From: a virus
Reading direction: 5' to 3' (one strand)
DNA length: 22,467 bases
IMG/VR virus record: IMGVR_UViG_3300028653_000060
Span: 1 to 22,467 of that record
Shown: piece after piece, positions 6,795-20,734 of the stretch
Layout: the number at the start of each line of letters is the position of its first letter
How positions within the stretch are numbered: position 1 is the stretch's first letter
The notes under the pieces: generated by a model
The model's input: only the letters and a program-made list of their open reading frames with translations
Told to the model about the DNA's origin: nothing
Database searches by the model: none
Translations under genes and position numbers: made by a program

Positions 6795-7952
6795 TCAATC
6801 AGCCGCCAGTACTGCGTCCTGATAGCCGAGAGACTTCGGGTAGCGCAGCTCGAAGCCGGCATACCGGTAGTGTCCAGGCACAATGACCTCAAGGAGCCGC
6901 AGTTGCGGCGCCAGGAAGGTCATTGGCTGCGGCACGTGCATCACGCAGCGGTCGGGGTCCTTCTTGTAGTAGATCACGCGGCTCTTTCCGCTGTAGGACC
7001 CGGCACCAGTCAGAACGCCGGCAGTCTCCAGACCCGGCACACCAACGAAGTTGATGTCGATGTTCTTCTGCTGTTTGGCCAGATTGTTGGCCTTCAGGAA
7101 GGCCAAGATCGTCATGTTGGTGGGGACCGTCACGCCATTGGATGTGGCCACAACCAATCGCGTAGCCAGGGCGTTCAGCGCGGCGATCGGCATCGCTATG
7201 GTGTCGGGGAAGTCGTTCGTCGCCGTGTTCGAGTAGATCTCCGTGATCTTGTTGTTGATGTCAGCGAGAATGCCGAGCGGGCTTGTCAAAGGATCGTCCC
7301 ACTTCCCAGTGCTTGCCTTCGCCGGAGTAACCAGCGTTTGCGGGACGTTTGACAACCCGTAGAAGTTGTCTTCACCGAAAAGCGCCACCTCATTGAGGTG
7401 TAGATTTGCACCGTCAACGGCCGCGCTCATGAGCAGATCGGGAAGGGCCCGCTTGAGTTGCTGGCTCGCGATCAACTCCTGCACGTTGTAGCCGTAGGAC
7501 AGCCCACCGCCTTCGACCTGGATTTGCTTGCGCCCGAACCGCACGCCAACGCGCGGTAGATCGCTTGCGTCCGCATTGAGCCGCTTCCCTTGTCCTGTAC
7601 GCTCGAACGTCTGGTACTCGACCGTCTCGGCCCACGGGGGGGCCTCGTAGGACACCGGCACGAGATCCTTCCACAGCGGGGGGATCTTCTGCTTCTCGAA
7701 CATCCGCGCTTCCGTGTGGGCCAGCTCCGAGATCATGAAGGCCAGCGGATCCGTAGAGTCCGTTGCCCTCTTCATCTCTTCGAGCGGCCACAGGGCCGGA
7801 GCCTGGAGCCGGATCGAGCGACTCAGAAACTCATACCGCTCGTAAGGCACCATACGCTCGACCTTGCGGCCGGCGTCGTATACCTGAATCACCGCAACGT
7901 CGAACGTGCGGCCCGACTTGCCATCTTTGATTTGCTTTCGACAAAGAAACAT
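6795..7952 (-). CDS. Major capsid protein (DUF2184)
   Basis: A 385-residue protein, the likely shell subunit of the head. Recognisable segments in order are a charged N-terminal region, TDPLAFMISELAHTEARMFE, the loop after VSYEAPPWAETVEYQTFERT, LPRVGVRFGRKQIQVEGGGL, an alanine-rich helix with QQLKRALPDLLMSAAVDGAN, then NEVALFGEDNFYGLSNVP and a C-terminal region with KDPDRCVMHVPQPMTFLAPQ. This matches DUF2184 capsid proteins of myophages and some siphophages, which have the HK97 fold. ATG at 7952 has AAGGA seven bases upstream. The gene follows the cement protein by 24 bases, the usual order scaffold, cement, capsid. Confidence 0.9.
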   Translation of the reverse strand: MFLCRKQIKDGKSGRTFDVAVIQVYDAGRKVERMVPYERYEFLSRSIRLQAPALWPLEEMKRATDSTDPLAFMISELAHTEARMFEKQKIPPLWKDLVPVSYEAPPWAETVEYQTFERTGQGKRLNADASDLPRVGVRFGRKQIQVEGGGLSYGYNVQELIASQQLKRALPDLLMSAAVDGANLHLNEVALFGEDNFYGLSNVPQTLVTPAKASTGKWDDPLTSPLGILADINNKITEIYSNTATNDFPDTIAMPIAALNALATRLVVATSNGVTVPTNMTILAFLKANNLAKQQKNIDINFVGVPGLETAGVLTGAGSYSGKSRVIYYKKDPDRCVMHVPQPMTFLAPQLRLLEVIVPGHYRYAGFELRYPKSLGYQDAVLAAD

Positions 7953-7976
7953 TGTGGAGTCCTTTCGTTGGGCCGC

Positions 7977-8531
7977 TTAGGAGTAGAGAACCGGGGTTCC
8001 GCGGTCGCTGATCTTGATGATTCCAACGGCCCCAGCCGCTGTGGTGGTTTCCCAGACGGCGCCCTTGACGATGAGCCGCCCACTGCCTGCGCCGGCCACC
8101 GTGCTGCCACCGAGCTGCCCTTTGCTGGCAGAGATGGCAAACACTTGGTCGTTCTCCCGCACGTTCTCGCAGGGGATCGCGAATCGTCGACCAATGCGGA
8201 CGATCGAAACGCTGTGTTTGGATGGCCACCCGGTCACGTTGTCGGATGGGTTCGCCGACTTGACGATCGGCAATCGGCTCGTGATTCCGGCGACGGTAGC
8301 CGCCGTGTCAGACGTTTCGATCGGCGCGACGTTCAGCCGGCCAGCGGCGTTTGTGCCACTGCCAACCTTGCATGCAACGCCGAAGTCCAGCAACCCGGTG
8401 CTGCTGTCAAGCCCGCCAGTGGTCGCTTCGTTGTAAACGGTATCCAGCACTTGCGGCCCGGCGTCGGCGGCTTGGCCGGCCAGGCCCTTGGTGAACAACC
8501 GTCCGCCAGTAGTAGCAAGAATGTCAGCCAT
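7977..8531 (-). CDS. Head decoration / structural cement protein (Gp24-like)
   Basis: A 184-residue, glycine-, alanine- and threonine-rich protein between the scaffold and capsid genes. It begins MADILATTGGRLFTKGLAGQ. Segments AADAGPQVLDTVYNEATTGG, NPSDNVTGWPSKHSVSIVRI and RFAIPCENVRENDQVFAIS fit the structural cement proteins of DUF2184-capsid phages, which bind the outside of the shell and stabilise it. The beta-rich composition and the absence of coiled coil agree. ATG at 8531 has GAGGAG six bases upstream, a strong ribosome site as expected for an abundant virion protein. Confidence 0.75.
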   Translation of the reverse strand: MADILATTGGRLFTKGLAGQAADAGPQVLDTVYNEATTGGLDSSTGLLDFGVACKVGSGTNAAGRLNVAPIETSDTAATVAGITSRLPIVKSANPSDNVTGWPSKHSVSIVRIGRRFAIPCENVRENDQVFAISASKGQLGGSTVAGAGSGRLIVKGAVWETTTAAGAVGIIKISDRGTPVLYS

Positions 8532-8547
8532 GGGATTCTCCTCGTGT

Positions 8548-9189
8548 TCAGATCACCGATCCGACACAAATGTCGGAGCGGCTGGACAGGTCGACGACTT
8601 CAACCGAACCATTGTTGACGGCCCCAGAGGAGCCGAGTTTTCCACCAAGAACGCCAGTGATGGCAGCGTCCTGTGCGGCGAGCGCAGACTGTCGCGGCAG
8701 AGCCAGTAGGGTCGCGAACGCGCCCTTGATTTGCGACTCCGTGGCCTTGTCGATGGACTGGCCACCAAAGATGGCGTCAACGACAGTCTTGTTGGTGACA
8801 TCCGAGCACGCGGCTTCGATGGCCGCCTTGCGGATGTCCAGACTGCTGCCCTTCGGCTGCAGTCCAGGCGCCAGCTTCTTCGCGTCGTCAGTGACCTGCG
8901 AGCGCTCGGCCACGAGGGCGTCAACGTCGATGGCCTTCGCTGCCTTCAGCTCGGTCTTCAGCGCTGCGATCTCGGTATCCTTGGCCGCAAGCCCGTCCTT
9001 GGCCGCTTTCAATTCGGCCTTCGCCGCGATCTCGTTGACCTTGTGTGAGTCAACGGCTTCGCTGAAATCCTTGATCACTTCATCGCGATCCTTTGTCAGC
9101 GTCCTGACGTGACTCTCAATGGCGCCGGCCGCGAGTTCGTCGATCTCGAACGGCGGCAGCCCATCCACTGCAATCTTTCTCATGCTCAT
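8548..9189 (-). CDS. Scaffold protein from internal in-frame start
   Basis: Inside the protease gene an in-frame ATG at 9189 (MSMRKIAVDGLPPFEIDELA) is preceded by AAAGGA with eight bases of spacing, as good a ribosome site as those of the major virion genes. The start falls exactly where the protease domain ends and the coiled-coil part begins. It would give a 213-residue protein made only of the scaffold domain. Lambda Nu3 within the protease gene C is the known precedent. The scaffold would shape the inner core of the prohead and be removed by the protease. Confidence 0.6.
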   Translation of the reverse strand: MSMRKIAVDGLPPFEIDELAAGAIESHVRTLTKDRDEVIKDFSEAVDSHKVNEIAAKAELKAAKDGLAAKDTEIAALKTELKAAKAIDVDALVAERSQVTDDAKKLAPGLQPKGSSLDIRKAAIEAACSDVTNKTVVDAIFGGQSIDKATESQIKGAFATLLALPRQSALAAQDAAITGVLGGKLGSSGAVNNGSVEVVDLSSRSDICVGSVI

Positions 9190-9738
9190 GGTTGCTGTCC
9201 TTTCGTGGTGTTGATCTCCGATACGGCAGATGGGTCCGCCTCTCGGTACGTCGACGATCGCGACGTGGTCTCCCAAAATGTCTCGCTGGTAGCCGTCGAA
9301 CCCTTCCCCTGGGGTCATGTCGAGCGTGAAGCTGTACCCGCACGACAAGGCGCCCTTGCCGCTCGTGACCTTCGCCACCATGGCGCCGTCTTGGACGATG
9401 GTGTGGCCGCCAAGCAGCTCGCCGTCTTGCTTGGCGATGTCCCGCACCAAGCCCTTCGAGTAGCGCGGCCAGTTTTCCGCCGTCACGAACTCGGGCGGGT
9501 GGTCATCTGTGATCGGAACATTCTCGAAGCTGGCGATGGTCTCGGGCCGGAACACCTCATCGGCGGTGCGCATGAGACGAACCACCGCGCGCGGATCGCC
9601 CTCAAGGTCGAGTTCGCCGCGGGTGTAGGTCTGCACGCCAGTCCGACCGATGACAGCGGGCGCGATGAGATACCCCTGGGGGGAAATCTCGCGCTTCGAG
9701 ATCGTCGTGATGTCGTGGACGGTGCAGCGGGTGCTCAT
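8548..9738 (-). CDS. Prohead protease-scaffold fusion (DUF2213)
   Basis: A protein of about 396 residues. I choose ATG at 9738, which overlaps the upstream stop in ATGA. An in-frame ATG at 9753 is an alternative. The N-terminal 180 residues are a DUF2213-type head maturation protease, with the expected motifs TDDHPP (His about 80), LSCGYS (Ser about 132) and DHVAIVDVPRGG (about 158-168). From about residue 184 the protein changes to a scaffold-like part: repeated alanine/lysine/glutamate helices such as AKAELKAAKDGLAAKDTEIA, then a C-terminal helical domain. The protease would cut scaffold and capsid after assembly of the prohead. An internal start likely makes the scaffold separately. Confidence 0.85.
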   Translation of the reverse strand: MSTRCTVHDITTISKREISPQGYLIAPAVIGRTGVQTYTRGELDLEGDPRAVVRLMRTADEVFRPETIASFENVPITDDHPPEFVTAENWPRYSKGLVRDIAKQDGELLGGHTIVQDGAMVAKVTSGKGALSCGYSFTLDMTPGEGFDGYQRDILGDHVAIVDVPRGGPICRIGDQHHERTATMSMRKIAVDGLPPFEIDELAAGAIESHVRTLTKDRDEVIKDFSEAVDSHKVNEIAAKAELKAAKDGLAAKDTEIAALKTELKAAKAIDVDALVAERSQVTDDAKKLAPGLQPKGSSLDIRKAAIEAACSDVTNKTVVDAIFGGQSIDKATESQIKGAFATLLALPRQSALAAQDAAITGVLGGKLGSSGAVNNGSVEVVDLSSRSDICVGSVI

Positions 9739-10358
9739 GCTGGCCCTGTCCATTTCCCATGCTCGTTGTATTCGCCCTCTGTTCTTGGGCGAATGTGTTC
9801 GGGCAATCCGTTACGATGCCAACTGGCTGCGGTTTGAACGTGCGCGGCTCCGCCCGACTTTTCCAATGCTTGGCTTATTGCCAATGCTTTTTGGCCGCCA
9901 CCAAGCTTCATCTTTCCGGCAGACGCCGCCTTCTGGATTTCATGGTAAGCGGCTAGTGCCTTCTCTTCATGTTCGGATGCCGGTTTACCGAACTCTCCAG
10001 CCTTTCGTTCTCCGCCGCCTTTGCCACTTCCACCTGCGCCTCCGCTCCACTTTCCGTCTGGGTCGCGGGGTTGGTCTGGGCTGCCGTCCAGTGCCTCGAC
10101 AAGGTGGCCAGCGCCCTTGACGCCGTCCCGAGCAAGTCGCTTGTAGAAGTTGATGTCCATGGTTACTTGCCCCAGCAATCCCCCGCCTTGTCTGGCGCCA
10201 GTCTCGTCGAGACAGTTCGTCGAGACAGTTCGTCGAGACAGTTCGTCGAGTAAGTGCTGTGCGTGCTGACTTCCACTGTCGACGGCCCGCCTGTACTTCC
10301 CTAACCCACGCGCATCGACGAAGTCAGGACCATAGATCTCGAATCTATCCATGTTCAT
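9735..10358 (-). CDS. Hypothetical protein with GKWSGG linker and 13-bp repeat
   Basis: About 207 residues if translation begins at ATG 10358, which overlaps the MuF stop in ATGA. Longer upstream starts would overlap the MuF gene. I do not recognise the family. The N-terminus (MNMDRFEIYGPDFVDARGLG) is followed at about residues 37-55 by a segment encoded by three and a half copies of a 13-bp repeat, read in all three frames. The middle holds SPDQPRDPDGKWSGGAGGSG, a linker type common in phage head genes, then a helical region AHVQTAASWHR, and a short C-terminal EHGKWTG that echoes the linker. It sits between MuF and protease genes, so a head role is possible. It ends in ATGA with the protease start. 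Confidence 0.6.
   Translation of the reverse strand: MNMDRFEIYGPDFVDARGLGKYRRAVDSGSQHAQHLLDELSRRTVSTNCLDETGARQGGGLLGQVTMDINFYKRLARDGVKGAGHLVEALDGSPDQPRDPDGKWSGGAGGSGKGGGERKAGEFGKPASEHEEKALAAYHEIQKAASAGKMKLGGGQKALAISQALEKSGGAAHVQTAASWHRNGLPEHIRPRTEGEYNEHGKWTGPA
10205..10250. repeat. 13-bp tandem repeat, 3.5 copies
   Basis: On the plus strand the unit CGTCGAGACAGTT occurs three times without mismatch and then seven bases of a fourth copy. It lies inside the hypothetical gene between MuF and protease. The unit is not a multiple of three, so each copy is read in a different frame and gain or loss of one copy would shift the frame of the rest of the gene. Three copies restore frame. Confidence 0.9.
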
Positions 10359-11281
10359 GCGGCCTGCTCCTGTTGTCCGAGGTCCAGTTCGAGGGCGTCC
10401 ATGTCTACGTGTGGTATTGGTACGCAGCGGCATTGAATATCCTGTCCTGGGTGGCAGGGCTCTCCCGCCACGCTTCCAGCGACCGGCCCGGGTTCGTCCC
10501 AGCGAAAAACGTGGCCATCAACTTCGGCATGGCTCTCGCGCACACGCTCATCACCGCTGGTCTGCCACTCGTACTTTTCGATCCCTACCTGCTGCTGGCG
10601 CTCGGCATTGAACGCCGAATTCATCTTGGCGGTTTGGTCGCGCGCGATGAGCTTCGCCCGGTTTTCGGTAACGTCGCCGTCATGCTGAACTTGCTCAACC
10701 AGCGATTCCCATCGCAGACCCTCCACCCACCCGCTCGTCACGGTCTCAGTCACGCGGTCGAAATACTGTTCTGGGATCGTCTTGATCAGCGCGATGTTTT
10801 CCGCGGTTGCGCCGCGCATCGACTGCAACAGAGGGCCGTTGGCTTGAAGCAGGCGCGAAACGTCGACGCCGATCGCCTCGTGGATCACGCGCGCAAGGCG
10901 TCCGTCGACGTTGTCCCGGTTCGACTCGACGGCCATGCCAACGAGGCGCTTCGTCCATGTGTCGAGGTTCCCAAGCTTCGCCGCCGCGCGCTTGATCTCT
11001 TGTTCCAGAGACGGCGGTATGCTGTCTATGACCTGGATGGCGTCGCCCGCTGTGGGCCGTGGCCAGCTCGCCTCGATCGCATTCAGGGCACCGTTGCCCA
11101 GCTCCCGGCAGCGCGCCACGAGCTGCAGCAGCCCGGCCCGGTATCGTAGCTCAGACTTGAAGCTTGGCCGCACCGGCCGCAGACGCCGAACAGGACGCGC
11201 GTTTCCATGGCGCTTGCGGTGACTGCGAGCGCCCGCTGCGAGGATTGCGAGGTGGAGGCCCAACGCCTTCCATAGTGACAA
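10355..11281 (-). CDS. Minor head protein, MuF-like (SPP1 gp7 family)
   Basis: A protein of about 308 residues if TTG at 11281 is the start. No ribosome site is visible, so the start is uncertain, and GTG or TTG codons further in are possible. The C-terminal third has the Mu F / SPP1 gp7 signature: IARDQTAKMNSAFNAERQQQ, then YEWQTSGDERVRESHAEVDG, followed by HPGQDIQCRCVPIP with the cysteine pair. Such proteins sit in the prohead near the portal and take part in head assembly or early ejection. The gene normally follows the portal directly. Here a reverse-oriented cassette of about 4 kb lies between the two. The first about 40 residues (basic, HRKRHGNARPVRRLRPVR) look unlike the rest and may be an artefact of the start choice. 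Confidence 0.8.
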   Translation of the reverse strand: MSLWKALGLHLAILAAGARSHRKRHGNARPVRRLRPVRPSFKSELRYRAGLLQLVARCRELGNGALNAIEASWPRPTAGDAIQVIDSIPPSLEQEIKRAAAKLGNLDTWTKRLVGMAVESNRDNVDGRLARVIHEAIGVDVSRLLQANGPLLQSMRGATAENIALIKTIPEQYFDRVTETVTSGWVEGLRWESLVEQVQHDGDVTENRAKLIARDQTAKMNSAFNAERQQQVGIEKYEWQTSGDERVRESHAEVDGHVFRWDEPGPVAGSVAGEPCHPGQDIQCRCVPIPHVDMDALELDLGQQEQAA

Positions 11282-11459
11282 ATAGGCACAGCGTTTGACA
11301 GATTGTACTTGACCCTAGGGACAGAATGTCGCTAACATGTTGCTTGTTGCTAATTCACCTGTGACGTTCGAGAAGTGGAAGCATGCAGCCGCCTCGGTCT
11401 CACCAAGTCTCGCCGCCTCGCCCACCCCCCCCACTGGTTCGAGAAGAAAGGATCCCCAA
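11282..11459. promoter_or_regulatory. Divergent gene-free region with candidate promoters
   Basis: About 180 bases separate the leftward MuF gene from the rightward cassette. On the plus strand TTGACC at 11309-11314 and TAACAT at 11333-11338 are 18 bases apart and could be a promoter for the cassette. On the minus strand TACAAT at 11307-11302 is a good -10 box with no clear -35, and it could restart transcription towards MuF. The two candidates overlap, so one regulator could control both. A direct GTTGC repeat lies at 11339-11352. All this is by eye. Confidence 0.35.
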
Positions 11460-11675
11460 GTGAAACGCAAGAACACCGTCACGCTGGCCCCCGAACACCA
11501 GGCTCGCATCAGGTCCCTTATCGACTCTCAAGGCGTCTATCAGGCGGCCCGTCATCTCGGGATGTCCAGGCACGCGATGGAACGGGCAGCCCAGGGTTCA
11601 ACTATTCAGGCCGGGACCGCAGCGCTACTGCGGGAGAAGTTCGCAGAGAGGGACGCGGCGGGGAAGGCTCCATGA
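11460..11675 (+). CDS. Small helix-turn-helix DNA-binding protein
   Basis: First gene of the plus-strand cassette. I choose GTG at 11460, which has AAAGGA with about seven bases of spacing. An upstream in-frame ATG at 11337 would add 41 low-complexity residues. The 71-residue product starts MKRKNTVTLAPEHQARIRSL and has a helix-turn-helix pattern at about residues 26-45 (VYQAARHLGMSRHAMERAAQ), followed by a helix TAALLREKF. The alanine pair and the LGMSRHAMER recognition helix are typical of Cro-like or transposase-like small binders. It may be the regulator of the cassette. It overlaps the next gene in ATGA. A peptide substrate for the radical SAM enzyme is a less likely alternative. Confidence 0.65.
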   Translation: MKRKNTVTLAPEHQARIRSLIDSQGVYQAARHLGMSRHAMERAAQGSTIQAGTAALLREKFAERDAAGKAP

Positions 11676-12526
11676 GCAAACACATGTTTTCCCACCTGGA
11701 AGACCGGGTGGGCGCAACGGTGGCCGGCCATATGCTGGTCGAGCACACTGAGCGAGCAATTAGATCTCCTCACCCGCCGTTGCCCCTCGTGATCGCGCTG
11801 CAGTTCTGGGCAGGAGATCAGGCCGAGGCGCTGCAACTCGCAAAGTTTCTGGCTGACCTGGAGCCGACCAGCAGAGATGACGTCCTGCTGGCGTTCTGCC
11901 GCCGCTTTGATGTCCCGATGTCGGCTGAATTGCATGAAGCCGGGATGTACTGCGGAGAGAAGTTTCCGATCACCCACATCCGCAGTGAGCGCGTGGCTAC
12001 CGGCCACCCAGACGGATGTTTTGGCCTTTGGTATGGGACAGCCGAGATCCTCTATCGCCACTACTGCGCCGGGTGGCCATACGGCAGCGCCTTCTTTGTC
12101 GAGGCCGATGGTGTTCCTACGCGGTTCGACTGGCTCGACTATCTCAAGCGCGCCCACATGAGCAACCTGCAACAAGGAAAGTCAGTGACTGGCGCCTGGG
12201 AAGGGCCTGGGCGATTTCACGAAGCGCACGTCAACGGAACGGTGTGCATAGACTTGTCCATGATCTCCAACTACCCGAGCCTGCAGTTTTGCCGCGAAGG
12301 CTCCGCGTGGGATTGTTTCCACTCCGGAGTGTTTCTGAAAGAGCTTGGACGATGGGAGGCAATCGAAAACCTGTACGGCGCCCACGACGTAACGCTGAGT
12401 GTGTACAAAACTATTGCTCGAAAGAGGGCGTGGTTGGCGTCAGTCAAGGACGGAAGCGCCTGGAACTGCGCCCAGACGTTGCTTGATCCACGGGTTAGAA
12501 TCAACACGGAAGGAGCTGGGATCTGA
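11672..12526 (+). CDS. Predicted glycosyltransferase, GT-A-like fold
   Basis: A 284-residue protein starting at ATG 11672 in an ATGA overlap with the helix-turn-helix gene. I read it as a nucleotide-sugar transferase of the GT-A type, at moderate confidence. A first strand and helix appear at about 37-65 (PLVIALQFWAGDQAEALQLA), followed by DDVLLAFCRRFD. Near 109-125 is TGHPDGCFGLWYGTAEILY. At 141-153 is FFVEADGVPTRFDWL, whose EAD could take the place of the metal-binding DXD. At 186-190 HVNGT is like the HxNG element of related enzymes. No signal peptide or membrane segment is seen, so it would act in the cytosol. Its partners downstream are a methyltransferase, a second such protein and a radical SAM enzyme. 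Confidence 0.6.
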   Translation: MSKHMFSHLEDRVGATVAGHMLVEHTERAIRSPHPPLPLVIALQFWAGDQAEALQLAKFLADLEPTSRDDVLLAFCRRFDVPMSAELHEAGMYCGEKFPITHIRSERVATGHPDGCFGLWYGTAEILYRHYCAGWPYGSAFFVEADGVPTRFDWLDYLKRAHMSNLQQGKSVTGAWEGPGRFHEAHVNGTVCIDLSMISNYPSLQFCREGSAWDCFHSGVFLKELGRWEAIENLYGAHDVTLSVYKTIARKRAWLASVKDGSAWNCAQTLLDPRVRINTEGAGI

Positions 12527-13197
12527 TGACCGCACATGAAGAATTTTGGAGTTGGAGCAATATGCCAGCGATGCTGGCAAGAGCCGCGAAGAGAATCAAA
12601 CCCGCTGGCATTGTCGACATTGGAGCTAGCGATGGACGATGGGCGGCGCTGGCCCGAGAGACCTGGCAGGACGCACGCCTGTTGTGTATCGAAGCCAACC
12701 CGGTGCACGAGCCCGGCCTGAAAGCGTTCTGCGAACGCACGGGGTCTCACTACACGCTTGAACTTGCGGGAGCTGCGCTCGGAATGACTCGCGTGCAATT
12801 CAACCAGCAGGACCCATTCCAAGGTGTAGACATCACGCACAGTGCGGAAGGTGACCACGTTCTGGTCACTACCGTCGATGAGATGGTCAGGGAGAGCGGG
12901 CTGCCAGGGCCATACTTGCTGAAATTTGATACCCATGGCCACGAGATCGCTGTCCTAGAAGGCGCACGCGTGACCTTGCCCAACACCACCGCGATTGTGA
13001 TGGAGGTGTACAGCTACCCGCCATGCCACGGAGCGCTTCGACACTGGGAAATGTGCCGGTTTCTGGAAGACCTCGGATTTCTTCCCACGGACATTTGCGA
13101 TCCTCTTTGGAGGCCACGGGACGGCAGGTTGCACCAAGTCGACATGCTGTTTGAGCGTTACAACGCGCCTGGGATGAACTCGGGTGACTACCAATGA
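12526..13197 (+). CDS. FkbM family methyltransferase
   Basis: A 223-residue class I SAM-dependent methyltransferase. Motif I is IVDIGASDGRWA at residues 29-40, the acidic end of strand two is CIEANP at 54-59, and the FkbM hallmark LLKFDTHGHEIAVLEGA lies at 131-147, followed by AIVMEVYSY. FkbM enzymes usually O-methylate sugars or other hydroxyl groups of glycans and polyketides. Between two predicted glycosyltransferases, O-methylation of a sugar is the simplest guess. Start and upstream stop share one base (TGATG), so translation is coupled. No membrane segment is seen. Confidence 0.85.
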   Translation: MTAHEEFWSWSNMPAMLARAAKRIKPAGIVDIGASDGRWAALARETWQDARLLCIEANPVHEPGLKAFCERTGSHYTLELAGAALGMTRVQFNQQDPFQGVDITHSAEGDHVLVTTVDEMVRESGLPGPYLLKFDTHGHEIAVLEGARVTLPNTTAIVMEVYSYPPCHGALRHWEMCRFLEDLGFLPTDICDPLWRPRDGRLHQVDMLFERYNAPGMNSGDYQ

Positions 13198-13904
13198 AAG
13201 AAAAAATCGTCGACATTATTGTCAAGAGCCTTCCACGTGACTACGACTGGCTGCCGTACTTGTGGCGCTCCGTCGAGAAGTACGTTACTGGTTTTCGCAA
13301 CGTGGTCCTGATTCTTGAGCAGAGCTACCCGCTCCCGCCGTTGCCGAGTAGATGCGTCGTGGCCAGATCGTGCGACTACCCGGTTGGGTCTGAGTCAGAC
13401 CACGGCGCCGTGGTTGAACGTATGCGAGCCTGGCACTACTCTGACGCCGAACGTCTTTTGTACGTAGACAGCGACTGCGTATTCAATGGGCCGGTAGACT
13501 TCCAGACGGAGCAGGCAATCAACGTCGAGCGTCCGATTGTGCTATGGAGGAAATGGGAAGAAGCTGGGCCCGGGGCGGTGTGGAGAACGCCGGCACGCGA
13601 AACCCTCGGATACGACCCCTCGATCGAAACGATGGTTCGATATCCGTTCTGCTATCCACGACAGGTGCTGCGTGACTTCTGGAACTTCGTTGGCGGAGAG
13701 GAACGACTATCAGGTCTGCCGTCAATCACTGACTGGTGTGCACTCGGCGCATATGCGGCCGACCACCATCCAGAGTCAGTGACACTGGTACACGCCTCTG
13801 TCGGGTTGGCCACGCCATCGTGCGTACGACAGTTCTGGAGCCACGATCGCGCGGACAATCCACGAGTTCAGGCCGAGATGGAAACGCTGGGACTTACTAG
13901 GTGA
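13194..13904 (+). CDS. Predicted glycosyltransferase with DSD motif
   Basis: A 236-residue protein starting ATG 13194 in an ATGA overlap with the FkbM gene. The N-terminus VDIIVKSLPRDYDWLPYLWR and the strand NVVLILEQ are the usual opening of GT-A enzymes of the DUF6492 or GT2-like kind. Residues 88-97 read LLYVDSDCVF, a hydrophobic strand ending in D-S-D, the metal and nucleotide-sugar binding motif. Later come RYPFCYPRQVLRDFWNFVGG and a region with SITDWCALGAYAADHHPESV, which could form the acceptor side. There is no signal peptide or membrane helix. The sugar donor and acceptor cannot be deduced. The family name is uncertain. The GT-A class is fairly secure. Confidence 0.65.
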   Translation: MKEKIVDIIVKSLPRDYDWLPYLWRSVEKYVTGFRNVVLILEQSYPLPPLPSRCVVARSCDYPVGSESDHGAVVERMRAWHYSDAERLLYVDSDCVFNGPVDFQTEQAINVERPIVLWRKWEEAGPGAVWRTPARETLGYDPSIETMVRYPFCYPRQVLRDFWNFVGGEERLSGLPSITDWCALGAYAADHHPESVTLVHASVGLATPSCVRQFWSHDRADNPRVQAEMETLGLTR

Positions 13905-13915
13905 GGATTTCTGCC

Positions 13916-14875
13916 ATGCTAGACGTCATTGGATTTTACACATTGACCGACAAAAGAGCCTGGCGCGTTGCCGCGTCCACGAGCCCTCCGCTGTCTCGCT
14001 GCGAGGTTCTTTTGTCCAACCGCTGCAACTTCCGATGCCCGTATTGCAGGCGCGTCGGCGGGCCTGACGCTGATCCGATCGAGGTCAAACGCCTGCTGAA
14101 TTACTGGATCGCCGATGGTCTAGCGGCGGTGCGATTTTCAGGAGGCGAGCCGACACTGTGGCCAGCTCTGAAGGAAACGGTCGTGTACGCCGCCAAGTCA
14201 ATTCCACGTGTTGCCATCTCCACCAACGGCAGCGCGACAACTGAGGAGTATAACGCGCTACTCAACGCTGGGGCCAATGACTTCAGCGTCTCGCTAGATG
14301 CCTGCTGTGCCGCCGATGGGGAGAAGATGAACGGTGGCATCAGTGGAGCTTGGGAGCGCGTCGTTGAAAACATCCGTTTTTTGAGTAGGCACACCTACGT
14401 CACTGTTGGTGTTGTGCTCACCGAAAGCAACCAAGCGCGGCTCAACGACGTGGTTCGCTTCGCCAGCCGCCTTGGGGTTGATGACATACGCATCATCCCA
14501 GCCGCGCAGGCTGGAGCGCGCCTGTCAGTGAGAGAATTGCCAGCCGCCGGACATCCGATCCTGCAGTGGAGATGGGAACGACTGCAGAATGGCCTCCCGG
14601 TGCGTGGAATCAACGCCGGCGACAGCCCAAGATGCTCTCTCGTACTCGACGACATGGCCGTGATGGATGGCCAGCACTACCCGTGCATCATCTACCTGCG
14701 TGAGGGCGGGACACCGATTGGCCCGGTGGGGCCAACGATGCGCGAAGACCGGCGACTGTGGTGCGAGTCTCACCGTTCAGACGCCGACCCAATTTGCTCC
14801 CGGCAGTGCTTGGACTTCTGCGTGGCGCACAACAATCGCGTGCGTGATTTTGCTACGCTGGCAGCCTTACGTTGA
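13916..14875 (+). CDS. Radical SAM protein with SPASM-like C-terminus
   Basis: A 319-residue enzyme if ATG 13916 is used, which has GTGAGGA about eight bases upstream. GTG at 13901, overlapping the previous stop in GTGA, is the alternative and adds five residues. Cys37, Cys41 and Cys44 in CNFRCPYC form the CxxxCxxC triad for the 4Fe-4S cluster that cleaves SAM. FSGGEPTL at 74-81 binds the SAM amino group. ISTNGS follows at 101. The C-terminus has Cys240, then G252 with x4 and Cys257 (a Cx11Gx4C spacing), and Cys283, Cys294, Cys298 and Cys302, which resembles a SPASM or twitch auxiliary cluster domain. Such enzymes modify peptides, proteins or sugars. It ends the operon and overlaps the converging ORF by 23 bases. 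Confidence 0.85.
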   Translation: MLDVIGFYTLTDKRAWRVAASTSPPLSRCEVLLSNRCNFRCPYCRRVGGPDADPIEVKRLLNYWIADGLAAVRFSGGEPTLWPALKETVVYAAKSIPRVAISTNGSATTEEYNALLNAGANDFSVSLDACCAADGEKMNGGISGAWERVVENIRFLSRHTYVTVGVVLTESNQARLNDVVRFASRLGVDDIRIIPAAQAGARLSVRELPAAGHPILQWRWERLQNGLPVRGINAGDSPRCSLVLDDMAVMDGQHYPCIIYLREGGTPIGPVGPTMREDRRLWCESHRSDADPICSRQCLDFCVAHNNRVRDFATLAALR

Positions 14876-15197
14876 AGTTGCGCGCCCGTATGCCCGTATT
14901 GCCGGCGCGTATGTGGGCCTCTAGGATTTTCAACATTCGCTTCTGCTGAGAATAGAAGTCTCGCAAAACCTCTGCGCACACACGACCAGCCCAGGCGTCC
15001 CCGTATTCGCGCGCCACATCCCGACAATACGACCACTCCGCACCGCACCCGCGAAATATGATATCCCCAGTATCGGCCATCCTCCAATATGAGATCACGC
15101 CGGCAGCCTCACCTTCGATGGTCTGATTGATGGAATCGCTTTCCCTCCAGGTGACGTAAATAAGGCTATCCGAAAGGCCATGTAAACACCTCCTCAC
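14853..15197 (-). CDS. Hypothetical protein, uncertain start
   Basis: A minus-strand frame of about 114 codons after GTG 15197, converging on the radical SAM gene. I do not recognise it. The protein-like text (TIEGEAAGVISYWRMADTGD, then EWSYCRDVAREYGDAWAGRV) suggests a real product. The start is odd: the best ribosome site, GAGGAGGTG, points to ATG 15181, which is in another frame and would give only 28 codons, ending at 15095. Either GTG 15197 is used with a weak site, or the gene carries a small frameshift near its 5' end. Its last residues overlap the antisense end of the radical SAM gene. It lies between the cassette and the portal gene. Confidence 0.4.
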   Translation of the reverse strand: MRRCLHGLSDSLIYVTWRESDSINQTIEGEAAGVISYWRMADTGDIIFRGCGAEWSYCRDVAREYGDAWAGRVCAEVLRDFYSQQKRMLKILEAHIRAGNTGIRARNFNVRLPA

Positions 15198-15207
15198 CCG
15201 CCCCTAA

Positions 15208-15304
15208 CGGCCGCGCGCTAGCTTGCCCAGTATCGTGCCAGACACCGGGTGGAGGGCAGGCGCGCGGCCGATAGCGACGGGTGAAGTTCTTGGTGTCTGG
15301 CACG
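15208..15304. repeat. Interleaved inverted repeats, pseudoknot-like topology
   Basis: Two perfect inverted repeats interlock. Arm a (CGGCCGCGCGC, 15208-15218) pairs with 15260-15270. Arm b (CGTGCCAGACACC, 15234-15246) pairs with GGTGTCTGGCACG at 15292-15304. The order a, b, a', b' allows an H-type pseudoknot in RNA of either strand, or two alternative hairpins. It lies 32 bases beyond the portal stop, at the right edge of the cassette, with no U tract. GTGTCTGGCAC-type palindromes are known from REP-like elements, so a mobile or REP-like piece is the alternative to an mRNA end structure. Confidence 0.6.
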
Positions 15305-15335
15305 CCTACCAGGACAGCACGGACCAACCCGCCTG

Positions 15336-17057
15336 TCAAGCCTTTGGTGGGAATACCTTTGGTGGTACTGCCGAAGCTGGCGCAGCCTCACCAATGTTCC
15401 CCGCTTCCGCGTTCGTCGCCTTTGCGATCACGCCTGCGTGTTTTGCGGTGAACTCCGCAATGGTCAGCGCCCCATCTCCCCCCGGCCACTCTGGCAGGCC
15501 AAGCTGAGCAAGGGCTTGATTGACTGTCACGATCGCACCTTGCATCGTCGGGGTAAGGGCAATCTGCGGCGACCCAGCGGCCGGAATGTCGCCCATGGAT
15601 GCGGCATCTCCTGGCTCGTCACCCTCTTCGGCCGGTGGAACCTTCAGTTCTGCATTGTCGACATCTTCCTGGGTCATGCTTCGGTACAGGCTGTCTTCCT
15701 TCGTCTCGCGCGCGGCGAGACCCGGCGTGATGACCTGGTCATCGATACGGATGTGATCCGCTTCGGCGCGCGTCTTGTTGATCGTCGCCTTTTCCATCGC
15801 GGTCGGCTCCCAGTATGGACGATACACGACGTCGAACCCGTCTGGCACACGCCCAAGTTCATCGCGCACGATCCATTCCAGGAGCGTGAGATGCTTTGAC
15901 TTGAGCGTGTTGTCTCGCTCCGCTGAAAGGTTGTCGTAGTAGTTTCGCAAGCTCGCGTCGCCCGTGGCGTTCAGGCCAGCAGGCTCATCGCCGAACAGGA
16001 CGCTAACCGGGTAGCCAAATGCGCCGGCGATTTCTTTCATTGCCAGTTCCCAGATACTGGAAAGCCCAGAAAAGTTGAATGTTCGCTGCTCGGACTTCTC
16101 TGTCTTCATGTCCAGAACAAGCACCTGCCACATGCTCGCGAGCCGGTGAGCGGCTGCGTAGCGCGCGGCCATTTGCTCTTGTCCCTTCGCGGTCGCTGCC
16201 ATCTGCGCGGCCTTCTCGGCATAGACGATGTCTTGCCGAGCCTTGGGCACCAAACTCGTAACCGCCGATGTCAGCATGCTGTACTGTTTGAGTGGTTCGA
16301 TCACAACCTGCAACACGCTGTCGTCCCAATAGGCGTTGCTGATTCTCGTGTACTCGTCAACCTCGTCACCTCCAAATCTGAGTACTCTGGTCCAGTGGAC
16401 TTGCTGCCCAACAAACCCACCCGCCACCCCGGTCAGCATGTGGAAAAGCGGATTGCCTCGATTCGGGCTCGATGGGTCCACGTCGATTTGACCTGTATGG
16501 TTCGCGCGCCAGCGATCGAAAACGAAAATCCCCTGCAGACTGCCCTTCTTGATCGAAGAGTAGTCAATTTGGCCGTTTTTCACGGGTAACGGCTCGTCCA
16601 AAAGCTGGCCCTTGACGATGGGTACCAGCAAGGCTCCACCAAATTCCCGCGCCATGGCCTGCACCCTGACCAACATCGCATTCGCGCCCCATCTGCGCAT
16701 GATAGACGCGCGCACGCGGTCGCCGTCGGTGTTCTGCTGTCCTTTCGTCTTCTCTCCCAAACCTTCCCAGACGAGGTCATACCCAGGACGGAGCATGTCC
16801 TGGGGCTTCTTCCACACCACCTTGCGCGCGAGCCACTGAGAACGAACCATGTTGCGGATCTCCTGCCAGGTCTCTGTGGCCGCGTACAAAAACCGAGTCG
16901 CCAACGCAGGGTCGTTCACGCCTCCCTGCCCGGTCATCCAGTTCGCGACTGAATCAAATGCCCTCCGGTCAGGGAACGGACCAAGGTTCTGCATCTGATC
17001 GGAAGCTGGCCGCTTCGGCGCGCGGCTCGCGCTGCTCTTCGTTGTTCGCTTTTTCAT
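15336..17057 (-). CDS. Portal protein (DUF1073, Phage_portal_3)
   Basis: About 573 residues from ATG 17057, which lies 31 bases after the terminase stop. An ATG at 17114 would overlap the terminase gene by 26 bases and add 19 residues without known function. After a basic N-terminus (MKKRTTKSSASRAPKRP) follow DRRAFDSVANWMTGQGGVND, ATRFLYAATETWQEIRNMVR, EFGGALLVPIVKGQLLDEPL and WTRVLRFGGDEVDEYTR. Then come YWDDSVLQVVIEPLKQYSML, MKEIAGAFGYPVSVLFGDEP and AGLNATGDASLRNYYDNLSA, all typical of DUF1073 portals. The portal is the dodecameric ring at one vertex through which DNA enters and leaves. The C-terminal 100 residues are acidic and low in complexity. The MuF gene, its usual neighbour, is separated from it by the cassette. 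Confidence 0.9.
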   Translation of the reverse strand: MKKRTTKSSASRAPKRPASDQMQNLGPFPDRRAFDSVANWMTGQGGVNDPALATRFLYAATETWQEIRNMVRSQWLARKVVWKKPQDMLRPGYDLVWEGLGEKTKGQQNTDGDRVRASIMRRWGANAMLVRVQAMAREFGGALLVPIVKGQLLDEPLPVKNGQIDYSSIKKGSLQGIFVFDRWRANHTGQIDVDPSSPNRGNPLFHMLTGVAGGFVGQQVHWTRVLRFGGDEVDEYTRISNAYWDDSVLQVVIEPLKQYSMLTSAVTSLVPKARQDIVYAEKAAQMAATAKGQEQMAARYAAAHRLASMWQVLVLDMKTEKSEQRTFNFSGLSSIWELAMKEIAGAFGYPVSVLFGDEPAGLNATGDASLRNYYDNLSAERDNTLKSKHLTLLEWIVRDELGRVPDGFDVVYRPYWEPTAMEKATINKTRAEADHIRIDDQVITPGLAARETKEDSLYRSMTQEDVDNAELKVPPAEEGDEPGDAASMGDIPAAGSPQIALTPTMQGAIVTVNQALAQLGLPEWPGGDGALTIAEFTAKHAGVIAKATNAEAGNIGEAAPASAVPPKVFPPKA

Positions 17058-17088
17058 GAGTTTGGTCCGTTTCTGTGGTTGTGGCCTG

Positions 17089-18528
17089 CTAGTAATACTG
17101 GAATGGATTGTCATTGACCCTGCCGACGTTGTAGGCCCCGGTCAAACAGTCTACCTGGTTGTCCTTCCGCGAGCCAACGCCGGTGAATCGCTGAACCTCC
17201 TTGAGAAACCCTTTCACGTCCCAGTCCACCGATTCAGCCGGGGGCACCGTAATCAGCCCGCGTGCCCACGCGGCGGCCGCTGGTTGCGCGCGCTGGAACT
17301 TGTCTCCCTCGGGAAAGTGTTCCTCAAGGTTCAGGTCGGGATCGATTTCCTTTAGGATCTGCACGACTGCTTTGAACCCTGCCACGGACTCCACCCAGGT
17401 CTCAATGCCGCCGTATTTCTCCTGAAATTCCTTCACCTGACGTGCGTACTCCGGGACGGTCCATTGCCCCTTGTGGACGTCGGCCACGTGGCAGCGCATG
17501 TCTGGGCCGGATCCCTCGCACTCCAGCAACAACATCGCACCGTCGTCCGCCGTGGTCTTCTCGCTGGCCGCCGGGTCGCCGTAGATGACTCGGCGAAAGT
17601 TGGTCAGCGGCGCCGCCCGGTAGGTCTCGACCCCGAACACGTTGTGCCCACGCGGACGCGGACGCCCCTGGTAGAGCGCGGAGAACGACCATTCGCCAAT
17701 CACGTCGCGAATTTTCGCGAGCGCCTCGGCAGTGTAGAGCGGGTTGCCAGCCCACAGGGCCTCGCCTTCCCGGCGCCCGAGCGGGTCGTTCTCTTCGGCC
17801 AACGCCGGGAGGCTGATGTACTCCCACCCCAGCTCATCCACGATGCGTCCCACGAGGTCGTCTGGGTTCCATCGCTGCATGACCACTAGGATATTGCCGC
17901 CCTCCATACGGGGAACGATCACCTCAGTCAGGGTTTCCCACAGCCGTTTGTTGACGATGTCGCTGTCAGCTTCCTCTCGGTTTTTGTATGGGTCGTCGTA
18001 CACGCACCATCCAGAAATGCGCCGGCCCATGATGCCGCCACCCGCCCCGGCCGCCAGAAAATACCCGCCCTCGTTGCTCTCCCATGCCCCCATGGCGTCG
18101 GACTCGCCGAATTGCACGCCGGCGTCCGCTGCGAACCCGCGCGCGCGGCGAGATTCGAAGAAGGCCTTGTCCGCGCTGTAGGTCAGATAAGCGTTGATGT
18201 CCCCCCCGTGATACCTCATCCACCACGCCAAGCACCGGAGAATGGTCAGGGTCTTGGTATGGCCGGGAGGAAGGGAAAGGCAGGCGCGCACCTGCTCGTA
18301 TTGCCCGCGCTCGAACAAGTCGAGCACGGGCCGAACGTGCGCCGGCGGTGGATGATGAGGAGCTGTCCGGCGGATAAAGTCGGACGGGTTTTCCGGCGCC
18401 ACGCTCCCGCGAATGATCTGCAGCGCGTATTCTCGATCCTCGGGACTCAGTAGGTGAATCCCGGCCCGCAGTCGCTCGACATGACATCTGCGCTCGGCCC
18501 GCACTCGGGCGAGCTGATCAACCGTCAC
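17089..18528 (-). CDS. terL: Terminase large subunit
   Basis: About 479 residues from GTG 18528, which overlaps the small-subunit stop in GTGA. An in-frame start at 18600 would lie inside that gene. The ATPase half has a Walker A-like LPPGHTKT at residues 86-93, Walker B WCVYDDP at 174-180 and a coupling region LVVMQRWNPDDLVGRIVDEL at 214-233. The nuclease half begins RVIYGDPAASEKTTADDG near 313-330 with its first aspartate at about 318 and ends with KDNQVDCLTGAYN, holding another acidic residue. The enzyme pumps DNA into the prohead and cuts concatemers. Length is in the normal range. Confidence 0.92.
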   Translation of the reverse strand: MTVDQLARVRAERRCHVERLRAGIHLLSPEDREYALQIIRGSVAPENPSDFIRRTAPHHPPPAHVRPVLDLFERGQYEQVRACLSLPPGHTKTLTILRCLAWWMRYHGGDINAYLTYSADKAFFESRRARGFAADAGVQFGESDAMGAWESNEGGYFLAAGAGGGIMGRRISGWCVYDDPYKNREEADSDIVNKRLWETLTEVIVPRMEGGNILVVMQRWNPDDLVGRIVDELGWEYISLPALAEENDPLGRREGEALWAGNPLYTAEALAKIRDVIGEWSFSALYQGRPRPRGHNVFGVETYRAAPLTNFRRVIYGDPAASEKTTADDGAMLLLECEGSGPDMRCHVADVHKGQWTVPEYARQVKEFQEKYGGIETWVESVAGFKAVVQILKEIDPDLNLEEHFPEGDKFQRAQPAAAAWARGLITVPPAESVDWDVKGFLKEVQRFTGVGSRKDNQVDCLTGAYNVGRVNDNPFQYY

Positions 18529-19028
18529 GGCTCGGCCTTCGGCTCCATGTCGGTGGCCGTGTCTGATTCCGTCGTCTCTGGCTCCGCGACGAGCGCGCAT
18601 CCATCCAACGCGGCCATGATGCGGTCAAGCTCCTGCCGGGCCTCTGCCGTTGTGGGCTTGGGATTGGGGGACATCGAATGATCGCTACTGGTGAGGTCCA
18701 CCGCCTGATGTGGCCTGCCCGCGTACGCCTCGCGCAGCCCCTTCCGCGCCAGGTCGCTCTTGCCCATCGCCGCCAACCACTCCCGGTGCAGGACCGCCTC
18801 GATACGGGAGACGCCGGGACAGCCAATCTTGGATTGGAGCGACTTGCCGACTTCCGTGTCGTCCACTTCGTCAAGGAACGCCGCCACCTTCTCGCCACGT
18901 GTGCGGCCGTTGTTGCCGAGTGGATTGCGTGACGGCTCACCCTTTTTGCCGGGGCGCAGATTGGCCAAGCTCGCGGGGTTGGTGCCGCGCTTGCTGGGCG
19001 GGAAGGGGGACGAGGGGTTGTCAGCCAT
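18525..19028 (-). CDS. Terminase small subunit, putative
   Basis: A 167-residue protein directly upstream of and overlapping terL in GTGA. The N-terminal stretch PGKKGEPSRNPLGNNGRTRG followed by EKVAAFLDEVDDTEV has the look of DNA-binding small terminase subunits that share a basic G-N-P patch with DUF5681-type proteins. The C-terminal third is disordered and acidic (TTESDTATDMEPKAEP). The small subunit recognises the packaging site and hands DNA to TerL. A GGGGGG run touches the ATG, too close for an ideal ribosome site, so the start is probable rather than certain. Identification is mostly by context. Confidence 0.7.
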   Translation of the reverse strand: MADNPSSPFPPSKRGTNPASLANLRPGKKGEPSRNPLGNNGRTRGEKVAAFLDEVDDTEVGKSLQSKIGCPGVSRIEAVLHREWLAAMGKSDLARKGLREAYAGRPHQAVDLTSSDHSMSPNPKPTTAEARQELDRIMAALDGCALVAEPETTESDTATDMEPKAEP

Positions 19029-19038
19029 CCCCCCTAGT

Positions 19039-19890
19039 CTACACCGCCAGGCTGGTCTGTTGCAAACGATGACCCGTCACAGCCTGCGCACGCACGGCTG
19101 GGAATTGCTCCCAGCGACGGCCGTCAAGGTCGTGACCGGCCGATGTAGGCCTCACGCCGCCCCACTGCTTGAAGAACAACGCCACGCCGTCGCGAACGCA
19201 TGTGTCGCGCAGTGCTCGCGGCCAATCGGCGCGGTCCATGCGTGGCGCCCATTTGCCCCGCTCGTCTCGCGTAGCCATCCCGCGCGCGTCGCGAGTTTTG
19301 ACGTCCATCAGGTGACAGCCGGACTCGCCGCCCCAGATGGCCCACTGAATACCGTTGCCGCCGAAAGCGTTGTTCTTGCCGTGCGTCCACCGTCCGATGT
19401 CGACCAGCGAAAGCGCCGGCTCCACCGAAATGAACCGCACAGGAACGTCAACCTGGACGAGCGCTGGTATTCGCTCATCCGCGCGCTTCTGGTCTTCGAC
19501 CGTCACGCCAGCCCAAAAGTTCGCCGGCAGCTTCCGCCGGCGCGAGTAGCGCAGCAGGTTCTCGTGGCGCTTGGTCAGCACTTGGCATTGGTGTTGCGGT
19601 GTGGACTCGATGACGTCGAGCACGCGGTCGCGGTAGCTGTCCGGGATTCTCTCCCAAAACAGGTCGCTCATCGAGTTGACGAAAATCAGCGACGGCGTCT
19701 TGACCTTCGTGGGCTCGCTCAGCTTGTGCGGGCGCATCGTCAGGTCGAAGCCATTCGGGAAGGCCGACGTCCCGCGCTTGTTCTCGGCGAGCTGGCGGGC
19801 GTAGCAGTGCGCGCAGCCTGGCGAGACCGGCTCGCAGCCACTGCAGGGGTTCCAAGTGAGGGTCGTCCAGCGAATCTCGGTGTCATTCAT
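19039..19890 (-). CDS. Phage Gp37/Gp68 family protein (DUF5131)
   Basis: About 283 residues from ATG 19890, which overlaps the ribbon-helix-helix stop in ATGA. The N-terminus has WNPCSGCEPVSPGCAHCYA with Cys16, Cys19, Cys26 and Cys29. Then follow SLIFVNSMSDLFWERIP, QVLTKRHENLLRY, NFWAGVTVEDQKRADERIPA, VRFISVEPAL, WAIWGGESG and FFKQWGG, all hallmarks of the Gp37/Gp68 family. The family is common in phages and is considered related to radical SAM proteins, but no reaction has been fixed as far as I know. It is often found with a three-Cys-motif partner protein (TcmP). No TcmP is visible here. It is the last gene of the group before the terminase genes. Confidence 0.88.
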   Translation of the reverse strand: MNDTEIRWTTLTWNPCSGCEPVSPGCAHCYARQLAENKRGTSAFPNGFDLTMRPHKLSEPTKVKTPSLIFVNSMSDLFWERIPDSYRDRVLDVIESTPQHQCQVLTKRHENLLRYSRRRKLPANFWAGVTVEDQKRADERIPALVQVDVPVRFISVEPALSLVDIGRWTHGKNNAFGGNGIQWAIWGGESGCHLMDVKTRDARGMATRDERGKWAPRMDRADWPRALRDTCVRDGVALFFKQWGGVRPTSAGHDLDGRRWEQFPAVRAQAVTGHRLQQTSLAV

Positions 19891-20054
19891 GGCGTCTCGC
19901 TTTCTTTCGGGAACTTCAGCCGCGCCCTGATGGTGTCGGACACGGTGAGCCCGCGTCGCTCCGCTTCGCTGACCAGACCGGCATATTCTACTTCGGTCAG
20001 ACGCACGCGAATGACTCGGGTTCTTCGGGGTTGCTTGGTGTGTTGGTTTGGCAT
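19887..20054 (-). CDS. Ribbon-helix-helix protein
   Basis: A 55-residue protein from ATG 20054. An upstream TTG at 20123 would extend it by 23 residues. The core TRVIRVRLTEVEYAGLVSEA followed by ERRGLTVSDTIRARL has the strand, helix, helix order of ribbon-helix-helix DNA-binding proteins (MobC/CopG-like). No clear ribosome site precedes ATG 20054. TTGCGC and TACACT, 17 bases apart, lie just upstream and could be a promoter that makes a nearly leaderless message. As a small regulator, it may control the following Gp37/Gp68 gene, to which it is joined by ATGA. Confidence 0.65.
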   Translation of the reverse strand: MPNQHTKQPRRTRVIRVRLTEVEYAGLVSEAERRGLTVSDTIRARLKFPKESETP

Positions 20055-20123
20055 CGGTAAAGTGTACCACGCGCGGCCTACGCGCGCAAGAGCCACCGTG
20101 TCGCTTTCCGTTTGGTGCGTCAA
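20055..20123. other. Short gene-free spacer
   Basis: Sixty-nine bases between the methyltransferase stop and the ribbon-helix-helix start. It holds the candidate promoter TTGCGC-17-TACACT on the minus strand and a GC-rich stretch with CGCGCG runs. No gene is seen here. Confidence 0.4.
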
Positions 20124-20734
20124 CTAGGCGCGGTAACGGATTGCGTAATAGCGCGTACAGGACACGGCGGCTCGGGAGTGGATGCGCCGGCACTCTTCCG
20201 CCCGCACTTTCGTGCCGGCCTGGCACCACTGCATCGCCCACCGGATTACGTCGTCATACCAGCGATACAGCGGCACGGCTTCGTGGTACATCTCCGGGGT
20301 CAGCTTACCTGTGCCCGCCAGCGCATAGGCGAAGTCACACCCTCCCGTTCGCATCGCACGTTCCTGCGTACAGGTCGCCGTCACCACCAGATCACGCGCC
20401 GGCTGCAATCGTAGCGCCTGCCGCAGCAGGATCCATGGGTTAGCGTAGGCGTCCAGGTCGATGACGTCCCACGGCCCGCGCTCCATCGCGCGCTTCAAGA
20501 GTTGCGCGTTGTCGCCGCGCCAGCACTCTCCGGCCGGGTCGCCGGCGGGACGGCGAAAGCGCTTCTCGATGCCGAGGTACTTCCCACCGCCGGCTTCCAG
20601 GCTTCCCGGTACATGTGCCCTTCTCCTGCGAACAGGTCTAGCACCGCTGGCCGCTCGGGCGCCCATGTGAGGGCATGGCGCCGCAGTGCAATCTTGGCTT
20701 CCGGGTCGCCGTTGTCGGTCTGCTGGCCGATCAC
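20124..20734 (-). pseudogene. SAM-dependent methyltransferase, frameshifted
   Basis: Two overlapping frames together make one protein. The first starts with GTG 20734 (GTGA overlap with the ParB-like gene) and encodes PERPAVLDLFAGEGHMYREA, with motif I VLDLFAGEG. The second, in the -1 frame, continues GGGKYLGIEKRFRR, then WDVIDLDAYANPWILLRQAL, to a TAG at 20126-20124. The break lies near 20594, where the minus strand reads AAGCC. One missing G (AAGGCC) would restore a single 203-residue frame, giving a class I methyltransferase with DLDAYANPW as the likely catalytic or substrate motif. The substrate (DNA, tRNA or other) is unknown. It is either a mutation, a sequencing error or, less likely, recoding. 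Confidence 0.6.

Follow-up and report, generated by a model that had tools for sequence, protein, structure and literature searches.

Glycosylation of virion proteins by phage-encoded glycosyltransferases (GTs) has been described in mycobacteriophages, in which the capsid and tail tube proteins of Che8, Rita and their relatives are glycosylated (Freeman et al., 2023, described in PMC11256854 and PMC12619734). In chlorovirus PBCV-1, the protein A064R combines two GTs and a methyltransferase, and builds and methylates a capsid glycan (PMC9614988). In this study we analyzed IMG/VR virus record IMGVR_UViG_3300028653_000060, the whole 22,467 bases of which are hereafter called the window; the record is linear and probably a fragment. 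Five genes separate its portal gene from the gene of the minor head protein MuF. Our favored reading, held with about even confidence, is that, in the window, they represent an exchangeable glycosylation cassette that occupies a clade-specific portal–MuF hotspot and acts on virion proteins.

The minus strand of the window encodes the large terminase subunit (TerL, 17089-18600), portal and MuF, followed by a presumed protease, a presumed major capsid protein (6795-7952) and presumed tail proteins. Read directly from the sequence, the plus strand of the portal-to-MuF interval encodes a helix-turn-helix (HTH) protein, a first GT (GT1), an FkbM-family methyltransferase, a second GT (GT2) and a radical S-adenosylmethionine (SAM) enzyme (Table 1), with overlaps of 4 bp between HTH and GT1, 1 bp between GT1 and FkbM, and 4 bp between FkbM and GT2. 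An earlier note on this DNA had proposed five opposite-strand genes in a tight operon between portal and MuF. All five are borne out, as are their strand and identities: the FkbM and radical SAM proteins score above cutoffs, and the label "GT-A-like" for both GTs is supported by confident AlphaFold models matching GT-A enzymes. The span given for the cassette, 11282-15335, needs correction at its end: the last cassette gene stops at 14875 and the remainder is spacer. No cassette protein contains a hydrophobic segment (highest 19-residue mean 1.1), which suggests a cytoplasmic substrate.

Scanning with a MuF alignment yielded 80 loci, on which portal, MuF, GT1, GT2, FkbM and HTH were mapped (a scan of viral contigs with a single portal sequence had returned two relatives only). 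In most relatives the site is empty, with the portal and MuF genes abutting or sharing a few bases (L144, L145, L147, L153-L157 and L040; L numbers designate loci); L040 is MW202455.1, with the portal annotated at 7840-9288 and MuF from 9285. A separation of 3 to 9 kb was found in all 10 loci of the window's MuF clade (branch support 100) and in L142/L143. At each of these 12 filled sites there is an HTH gene that lies on the other strand from MuF and reads away from it, together with GT1 and/or GT2; additional minus-strand genes lie between HTH and MuF in L122, L124, L127 and L131. The GT block runs in the direction of the portal gene in seven of the 12 (L122, L123, L134, L138, L141, L142 and L143) and against it in five (the window, L133, L140, and L127 and L131, which are near copies of each other), and parsimony on the MuF tree requires at least three changes of orientation. 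Records of 63.9 and 64.4 kb, one per orientation, show the same arrangement in longer genomes. Other genes take the place of the GTs in L146, and L165/L166 contain other inserts.

These comparisons bear on several points of the earlier note. The portal–MuF junctions that it proposed to compare include empty sites, which define the insertion. Misassembly at 11282 or 15335 is unlikely because independent contigs from other samples carry a like insert with the same borders, and relatives do not all share the same genes in one orientation, since both orientation and content vary. The idea of a moron is incomplete: rather than a single moron, the site is a clade-wide hotspot with content swapped between near relatives. 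A single insertion in one phage is ruled out, as the entire clade carries an insert here. As a separate observation, the portal is encoded on the other strand from TerL and MuF in L163 (7885-9657), L171 (8232-9713), L169 and L173, which form one supported MuF branch (97) and in which the 3′ ends of TerL and portal meet, an unusual arrangement in a head operon.

The nearest relative of the window, L122 (on the same contig as L038), has a portal 81% and a MuF 79% identical to those of the window and is its sister in the MuF tree (support 98), yet the two GT1 proteins share only about 35-37% identity. The window GT1 groups with those of L133/L140/L138/L141/L212 and L217/L218, and a tree forcing it together with the L122 GT1 is rejected (approximately unbiased test, p-AU 1.7e-5). 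Because the L122 GT1 falls on another branch, the cassettes must have been replaced with the flanks retained; the same placement rules out that an inherited cassette was merely inverted. Further cargo in other cassettes includes an epimerase, a TylF O-methyltransferase and, in L122, L127 and L131, an MmeI-like DNA methyltransferase, a helicase and small early-type genes. The epimerase, TylF and a GT2-FkbM-sulfotransferase-like protein are typical of sugar building and capping. The 401-residue product of L122:5888-7090 is a possible fusion, with a sugar-transferase-like first part and a middle part weakly matching SDH/ClpP-like serine proteases.

Neither GT1 nor GT2 has a family match above cutoff in Pfam and NCBIfam profile searches, and their profiles found nothing useful in the PDB by sequence; matches came from comparing structures, using AlphaFold models built on 12-member alignments. 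The GT1 model (predicted local distance difference test, pLDDT, 85) has a predicted Rossmann-like GT-A fold, and the top PDB matches listed for it are glycosyltransferases or nucleotide-sugar enzymes (E 1.6e-6 to 1e-4, template-modeling score about 0.4-0.5), including B3GalT5, chondroitin polymerase and COLGALT1. At the DxD position it has E144-x-D146 within FFVEADGVP, with E144 invariant in 12 sequences, which could be a DxD variant or point to a metal-independent enzyme. GT2 (pLDDT 91) combines a modeled GT-A fold with a DxD motif, D92-S-D94, of which D94 is invariant in 12 sequences. Its fold is predicted to be nearest to retaining GT6 enzymes and Stealth/CpsY, with matches (E about 1e-7) to GT6 alpha-1,3-galactosyltransferases, a bacterial histo-blood-group transferase and CpsY (8j2n); one GT2 relative is DUF6492. 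No sequence match to either protein was found among 50,697 phage records, and none to GT1 in plasmids or in 398 Pseudomonadota genomes, which may not include the host's group (the same profile matches eight of eight virus records used as positive control). Among the collections searched, the GT1 family was met in uncultivated viruses only. GT1 is fused to GT2 in L127/L131 and to a Nucleotid_trans GT in L122, with a homologous N-terminal part in L142/L143, so GT1, GT2 and their partners probably act together.

The GT1 profile identified 97 relatives in IMG/VR, of which 80 were kept. In 35 contigs (27 distinct at <90% identity) of a second lineage, GT1 is encoded on the same strand as, and between, coiled-coil scaffold-like and conserved capsid-like genes. 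A terminase-like gene, whose product has Walker A/B and nuclease-like motifs, lies upstream, and several of these contigs encode collagen-like proteins downstream. A third lineage (L217, L218, L228 and L232) has GT1 with GT2 upstream of terminase (PHROG 2) and portal. Fusions, among them a GT2-FkbM-sulfotransferase-like protein in L232, suggest that the enzymes are functionally linked. The association of GT1 with structural genes is thus repeated in three lineages, which supports a virion acceptor. Four consecutive genes upstream of TerL in L228 (6679-9717), encoding GT2, a weakly STELLO-like GT, another GT-like protein and GT1, represent a larger version of the cassette.

The FkbM protein exceeds the curated cutoffs of both PF05050 (3.4e-10, 40.7 bits; cutoff 22.7) and TIGR01444 (1.3e-16, 61.4 bits; cutoff 37.7). 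For the radical SAM gene, the first in-frame GTG (13901) would give a 4-bp overlap with GT2 and ATG 13916 an 11-bp gap; the latter is the likelier start because relatives begin near M-x-L-x-x-IGFYTL (M-L-D-V-IGFYTL in the window). Its product contains the superfamily motif CNFRCPYC (CX3CX2C) with invariant Cys and matches PF04055 with 64.1 bits (cutoff 29.5). The C-terminal region has C245-x11-G-x4-C262 (numbered in alignment A5), corresponding to the SPASM element CX(9-15)GX4C, and its second Cys element is CX3CX3C rather than the classical SPASM CX2CX5CX3C; judged from these motifs, the enzyme is SPASM/twitch-like, not classical SPASM. Although MoaA is its best PDB match (3.6e-17), identity with MoaA is ruled out by a TIGR02666 score of 71.8 bits against a cutoff of 284, and a known maturase of ribosomally synthesized, post-translationally modified peptides by NCBIfam ranthipeptide and sactipeptide maturase matches far below cutoffs.

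About 20 viral relatives of the radical SAM protein (44-57% identity, Cys invariant) occur in large phages of up to 735 kb, mostly away from GT1/GT2, with a GT4-type transferase nearby in L003 and L021. A genome-contig scan with two patterns gave bacterial matches that, among those listed, are partial and 25-37% identical, which makes the family look viral without proving it. None of the other hotspot loci examined contains the gene, which appears to be an optional addition to the window's cassette. In seven independent large-phage contigs a conserved protein of about 95 residues (RPK..AVMF..FW.HLR..EF) is encoded near the radical SAM gene, adjacent in most; it has no Pfam match, is absent from the window and is a possible partner of the enzyme in large phages. 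Elsewhere in the window, a Gp37/DUF5131-like protein (19039-20241, minus strand), encoded just upstream of the small terminase gene, weakly matches TIGR04471 (radical SAM mobile pair protein A); a similar open reading frame (ORF) is found in L232 (2706-3791).

In all clade members the HTH gene is found at the MuF side and is directed away from MuF, independently of the direction of the GT block, and it is therefore part of the site and not of that block. Its start was placed at GTG 11460 because AAAGGA precedes it and it matches the start of a 71-aa relative; ATG 11337 would probably make the protein too long. The HTH of L122 has a weak Fis-type match. Sigma-70-like elements (TTGACA/TTGACC) lie at approximately 11295-11314 and a promoter-like site at 11309-11338, with two such sites found region-wide versus 1.4 expected, so that the site is weak alone. 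TTGAC is also present 5′ of the HTH start in nine loci (the window, L121, L123, L133, L134, L140, L142, L143 and L146), compatible with a sigma-70 promoter directed away from MuF, and the HTH protein possibly regulates the cassette operon. On the portal side, the spacer ORF (14853-15197, minus strand) was not called as coding and has a weak match to PHROG 10312 (E 0.0045). Just downstream of the portal stop, an inverted repeat at 15235-15246 and 15292-15303 (GTGCCAGACACC and GGTGTCTGGCAC) is one that we take to resemble REP-like elements; a terminator at 15235-15303 is unsupported, the 13-bp stem having z -1.0 versus shuffles over the whole stretch.

Table 1. Features of the portal–MuF interval of the window and its borders, and a conserved neighbor of radical SAM genes in large phages.
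Feature	Position	Strand	Evidence
MuF, a minor head protein bordering the site	10355-11281	-	PF04233 Phage_Mu_F 1.4e-22; PHROG 324 head morphogenesis 1e-66
Divergent intergenic region with sigma-70-like promoter elements, leading into the HTH operon	11282-11459	+	Promoter-like site 11309-11338 (weak alone); TTGAC in relatives
HTH, 71 aa	11460-11675	+	73% identity to L038:9875-10090; homologues in all clade loci
GT1, predicted GT-A glycosyltransferase	11672-12526	+	Alignment A7; model pLDDT 85; PDB fold matches
FkbM-family SAM-dependent O-methyltransferase	12526-13197	+	PF05050; TIGR01444; homologues in L134, L138, L141, L142
GT2, predicted GT-A glycosyltransferase with DSD motif	13194-13904	+	Alignment A6; model pLDDT 91; PDB fold matches
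Radical SAM, SPASM/twitch-like	13916-14875	+	PF04055 2.3e-17; PDB best match MoaA
Spacer, portal side	14876-15335		Doubtful minus-strand ORF 14853-15197 and inverted repeat
Portal, other border of the site	15336-17114	-	PF06381 Phage_portal_3 1e-63; PHROG 146
Protein of about 95 residues near radical SAM gene	L005:10957-11244, L007:10881-11237, also L010, L011, L018, L019, L020		

Between the virion and the host surface as target, the evidence leans to the virion: cassettes with GTs occupy the portal–MuF hotspot in 12 loci, and GT1 stands beside scaffold-like and capsid-like genes, so named from gene order, in 35 contigs. The earlier note's idea of a glycan-making cassette agrees with the GT-A folds of GT1 and GT2 and with the FkbM methyltransferase. 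In the infected-cell cytoplasm, GT1 and GT2 would add sugars successively to a virion protein (capsid, portal-associated or tail fiber), FkbM would cap a sugar by O-methylating one of its hydroxyls, and the radical SAM enzyme may act on a sugar or on an intermediate. Cassette exchange would alter the particle glycan and hence its recognition by hosts or other binders. The whole operon of the window would be read from its own promoter beside MuF, and in the portal-directed relatives (about half) the GT block would follow portal and be transcribed together with the late head genes. Together, these features suggest often-changing sugar coats that the viruses place on their own particles or, less likely, on the host surface.

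Several points weigh against a virion target. Acceptor, sugar donor and glycan are putative. For the second lineage, the assignment of capsid, scaffold and portal was based on gene order, size and terminase motifs and found no confirmation in profile searches. Transcription of the window's block is separate from that of the head genes and thus does not point to late expression. No GT homologue was found among the phage records searched, which leaves these enzymes without a direct functional precedent, and the radical SAM gene is unique to the window's cassette, its large-phage relatives being mostly apart from GT1/GT2.

The strongest rival, which we regard as possible but rather unlikely, is that the cassette enzymes act on the lipopolysaccharide or a different surface glycan of a host cell, infected or lysogenic, and block superinfection, as in seroconversion. 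Such morons are common in temperate phages (PMC12619734 mentions this too), and GT2 shows similarity to surface-glycan enzymes of the Stealth/CpsY and GT6 types. Five loci, the window among them, have the block in the HTH direction, pointing away from the late genes, as expected for early or lysogen genes. However, the block is portal-directed in seven relatives, Pfam and NCBIfam profiles found no GtrA flippase or GtrB bactoprenol glucosyltransferase in the cassette, its proteins have no hydrophobic segment, and the searches of plasmids and of Pseudomonadota genomes (possibly not the host's group) returned no GT1 homologue.

Alternatively, the site could simply be a tolerant hotspot for non-essential cargo, early-type genes included, with GTs that have no head-tied role. 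The varied cargo of L122, L127 and L131, the other genes of L146 and the inserts of L165/L166 are in line with this, but every one of the 12 GT loci retains GT1/GT2 while other cargo turns over, and members of this GT1 family stand beside structural genes in two further lineages, which makes the explanation improbable. DNA hypermodification, in which the GTs would glycosylate a modified base against restriction, appears slightly less probable again. Glycosylation of modified cytosine by phage GTs has precedents (PMC6024577 and PMC12838424; Pyle et al., 2024, as cited in PMC12619734), and the L122 hotspot also holds the MmeI-like methyltransferase. Nevertheless, the cassette lies among head genes, not replication genes; no thymidylate synthase-type enzyme was found in the window or in seven related records, three of about 64 kb (controls matched; records may be incomplete), and no Tet/JBP match in the searched records, in a search without a positive control and with the same possible incompleteness. 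Peptide maturation (the earlier note had mentioned a modified peptide), in which the SPASM-like enzyme would mature a small peptide to be glycosylated by the GTs, giving a ribosomal natural product or toxin, is very improbable: SPASM/twitch enzymes often act on peptides and peptide maturases are among the weaker NCBIfam matches, but these lie far below cutoffs, the cassette has no exporter or convincing precursor ORF (the sole long spacer ORF is doubtful; very short ORFs are possible), and other hotspot loci lack the radical SAM gene.

Returning to virion glycosylation, a more far-reaching version, which we consider speculative and on balance doubtful, would be an undescribed and widespread capsid-glycosylation machinery with virus-only GT1/GT2 families in head operons of at least three lineages, flipped and exchanged like an antigenic-variation cassette, for which the window's radical SAM enzyme was recruited to make an unusual methylated sugar. 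The GT1 family was detected in about 100 viral contigs versus none of the 50,697 phage-collection records; if the cassette does glycosylate virions, sugar coats would be far commoner in uncultivated phages than isolates suggest. A fixed portal-side site with swappable, reversible cassettes would then be a place to seek often-changing phage surfaces, which would bear on host range, particle stability and recognition, and the defined genes, borders and empty sites provide a genetic handle on virion glycosylation in these tailed phages.

Like the Gtr system (gtrA-gtrB-gtr), the cassette is a short glycosylation operon resembling temperate-phage cargo. Gtr seroconversion requires a flippase, a bactoprenol glucosyltransferase and a multi-pass membrane transferase, and the cassette has no match to GtrA, GtrB or a membrane-transferase family and no hydrophobic segment. 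With MoaA and SPASM/twitch proteins the radical SAM enzyme shares the CX3CX2C core and a second Cys-rich region with CX(9-15)GX4C, MoaA being the best PDB match; it differs in its score against the MoaA cutoff, in its C-terminal CX3CX3C and in belonging to a virus family of its own. PBCV-1 A064R and A061L likewise provide two GT domains, the first of GT-A type, and a sugar O-methyltransferase that finishes a capsid-protein glycan (PMC9614988). A064R is, however, a single fused protein of a eukaryotic virus, whereas the window has separate genes in the order GT-methyltransferase-GT plus radical SAM, and the resemblance is an analogy only. The mycobacteriophages also encode their own glycosyltransferases, several per phage; there, the Maravista GT genes lie near the 3′ genome end rather than between portal and MuF, and the cited excerpts mention no radical SAM enzyme in these systems (PMC11256854; PMC12619734). 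GT1 and GT2 further differ in having no sequence match in the phage records searched. Virion glycosylation by phage GTs is already known, and the portal–MuF hotspot cassette would be a variant of it.

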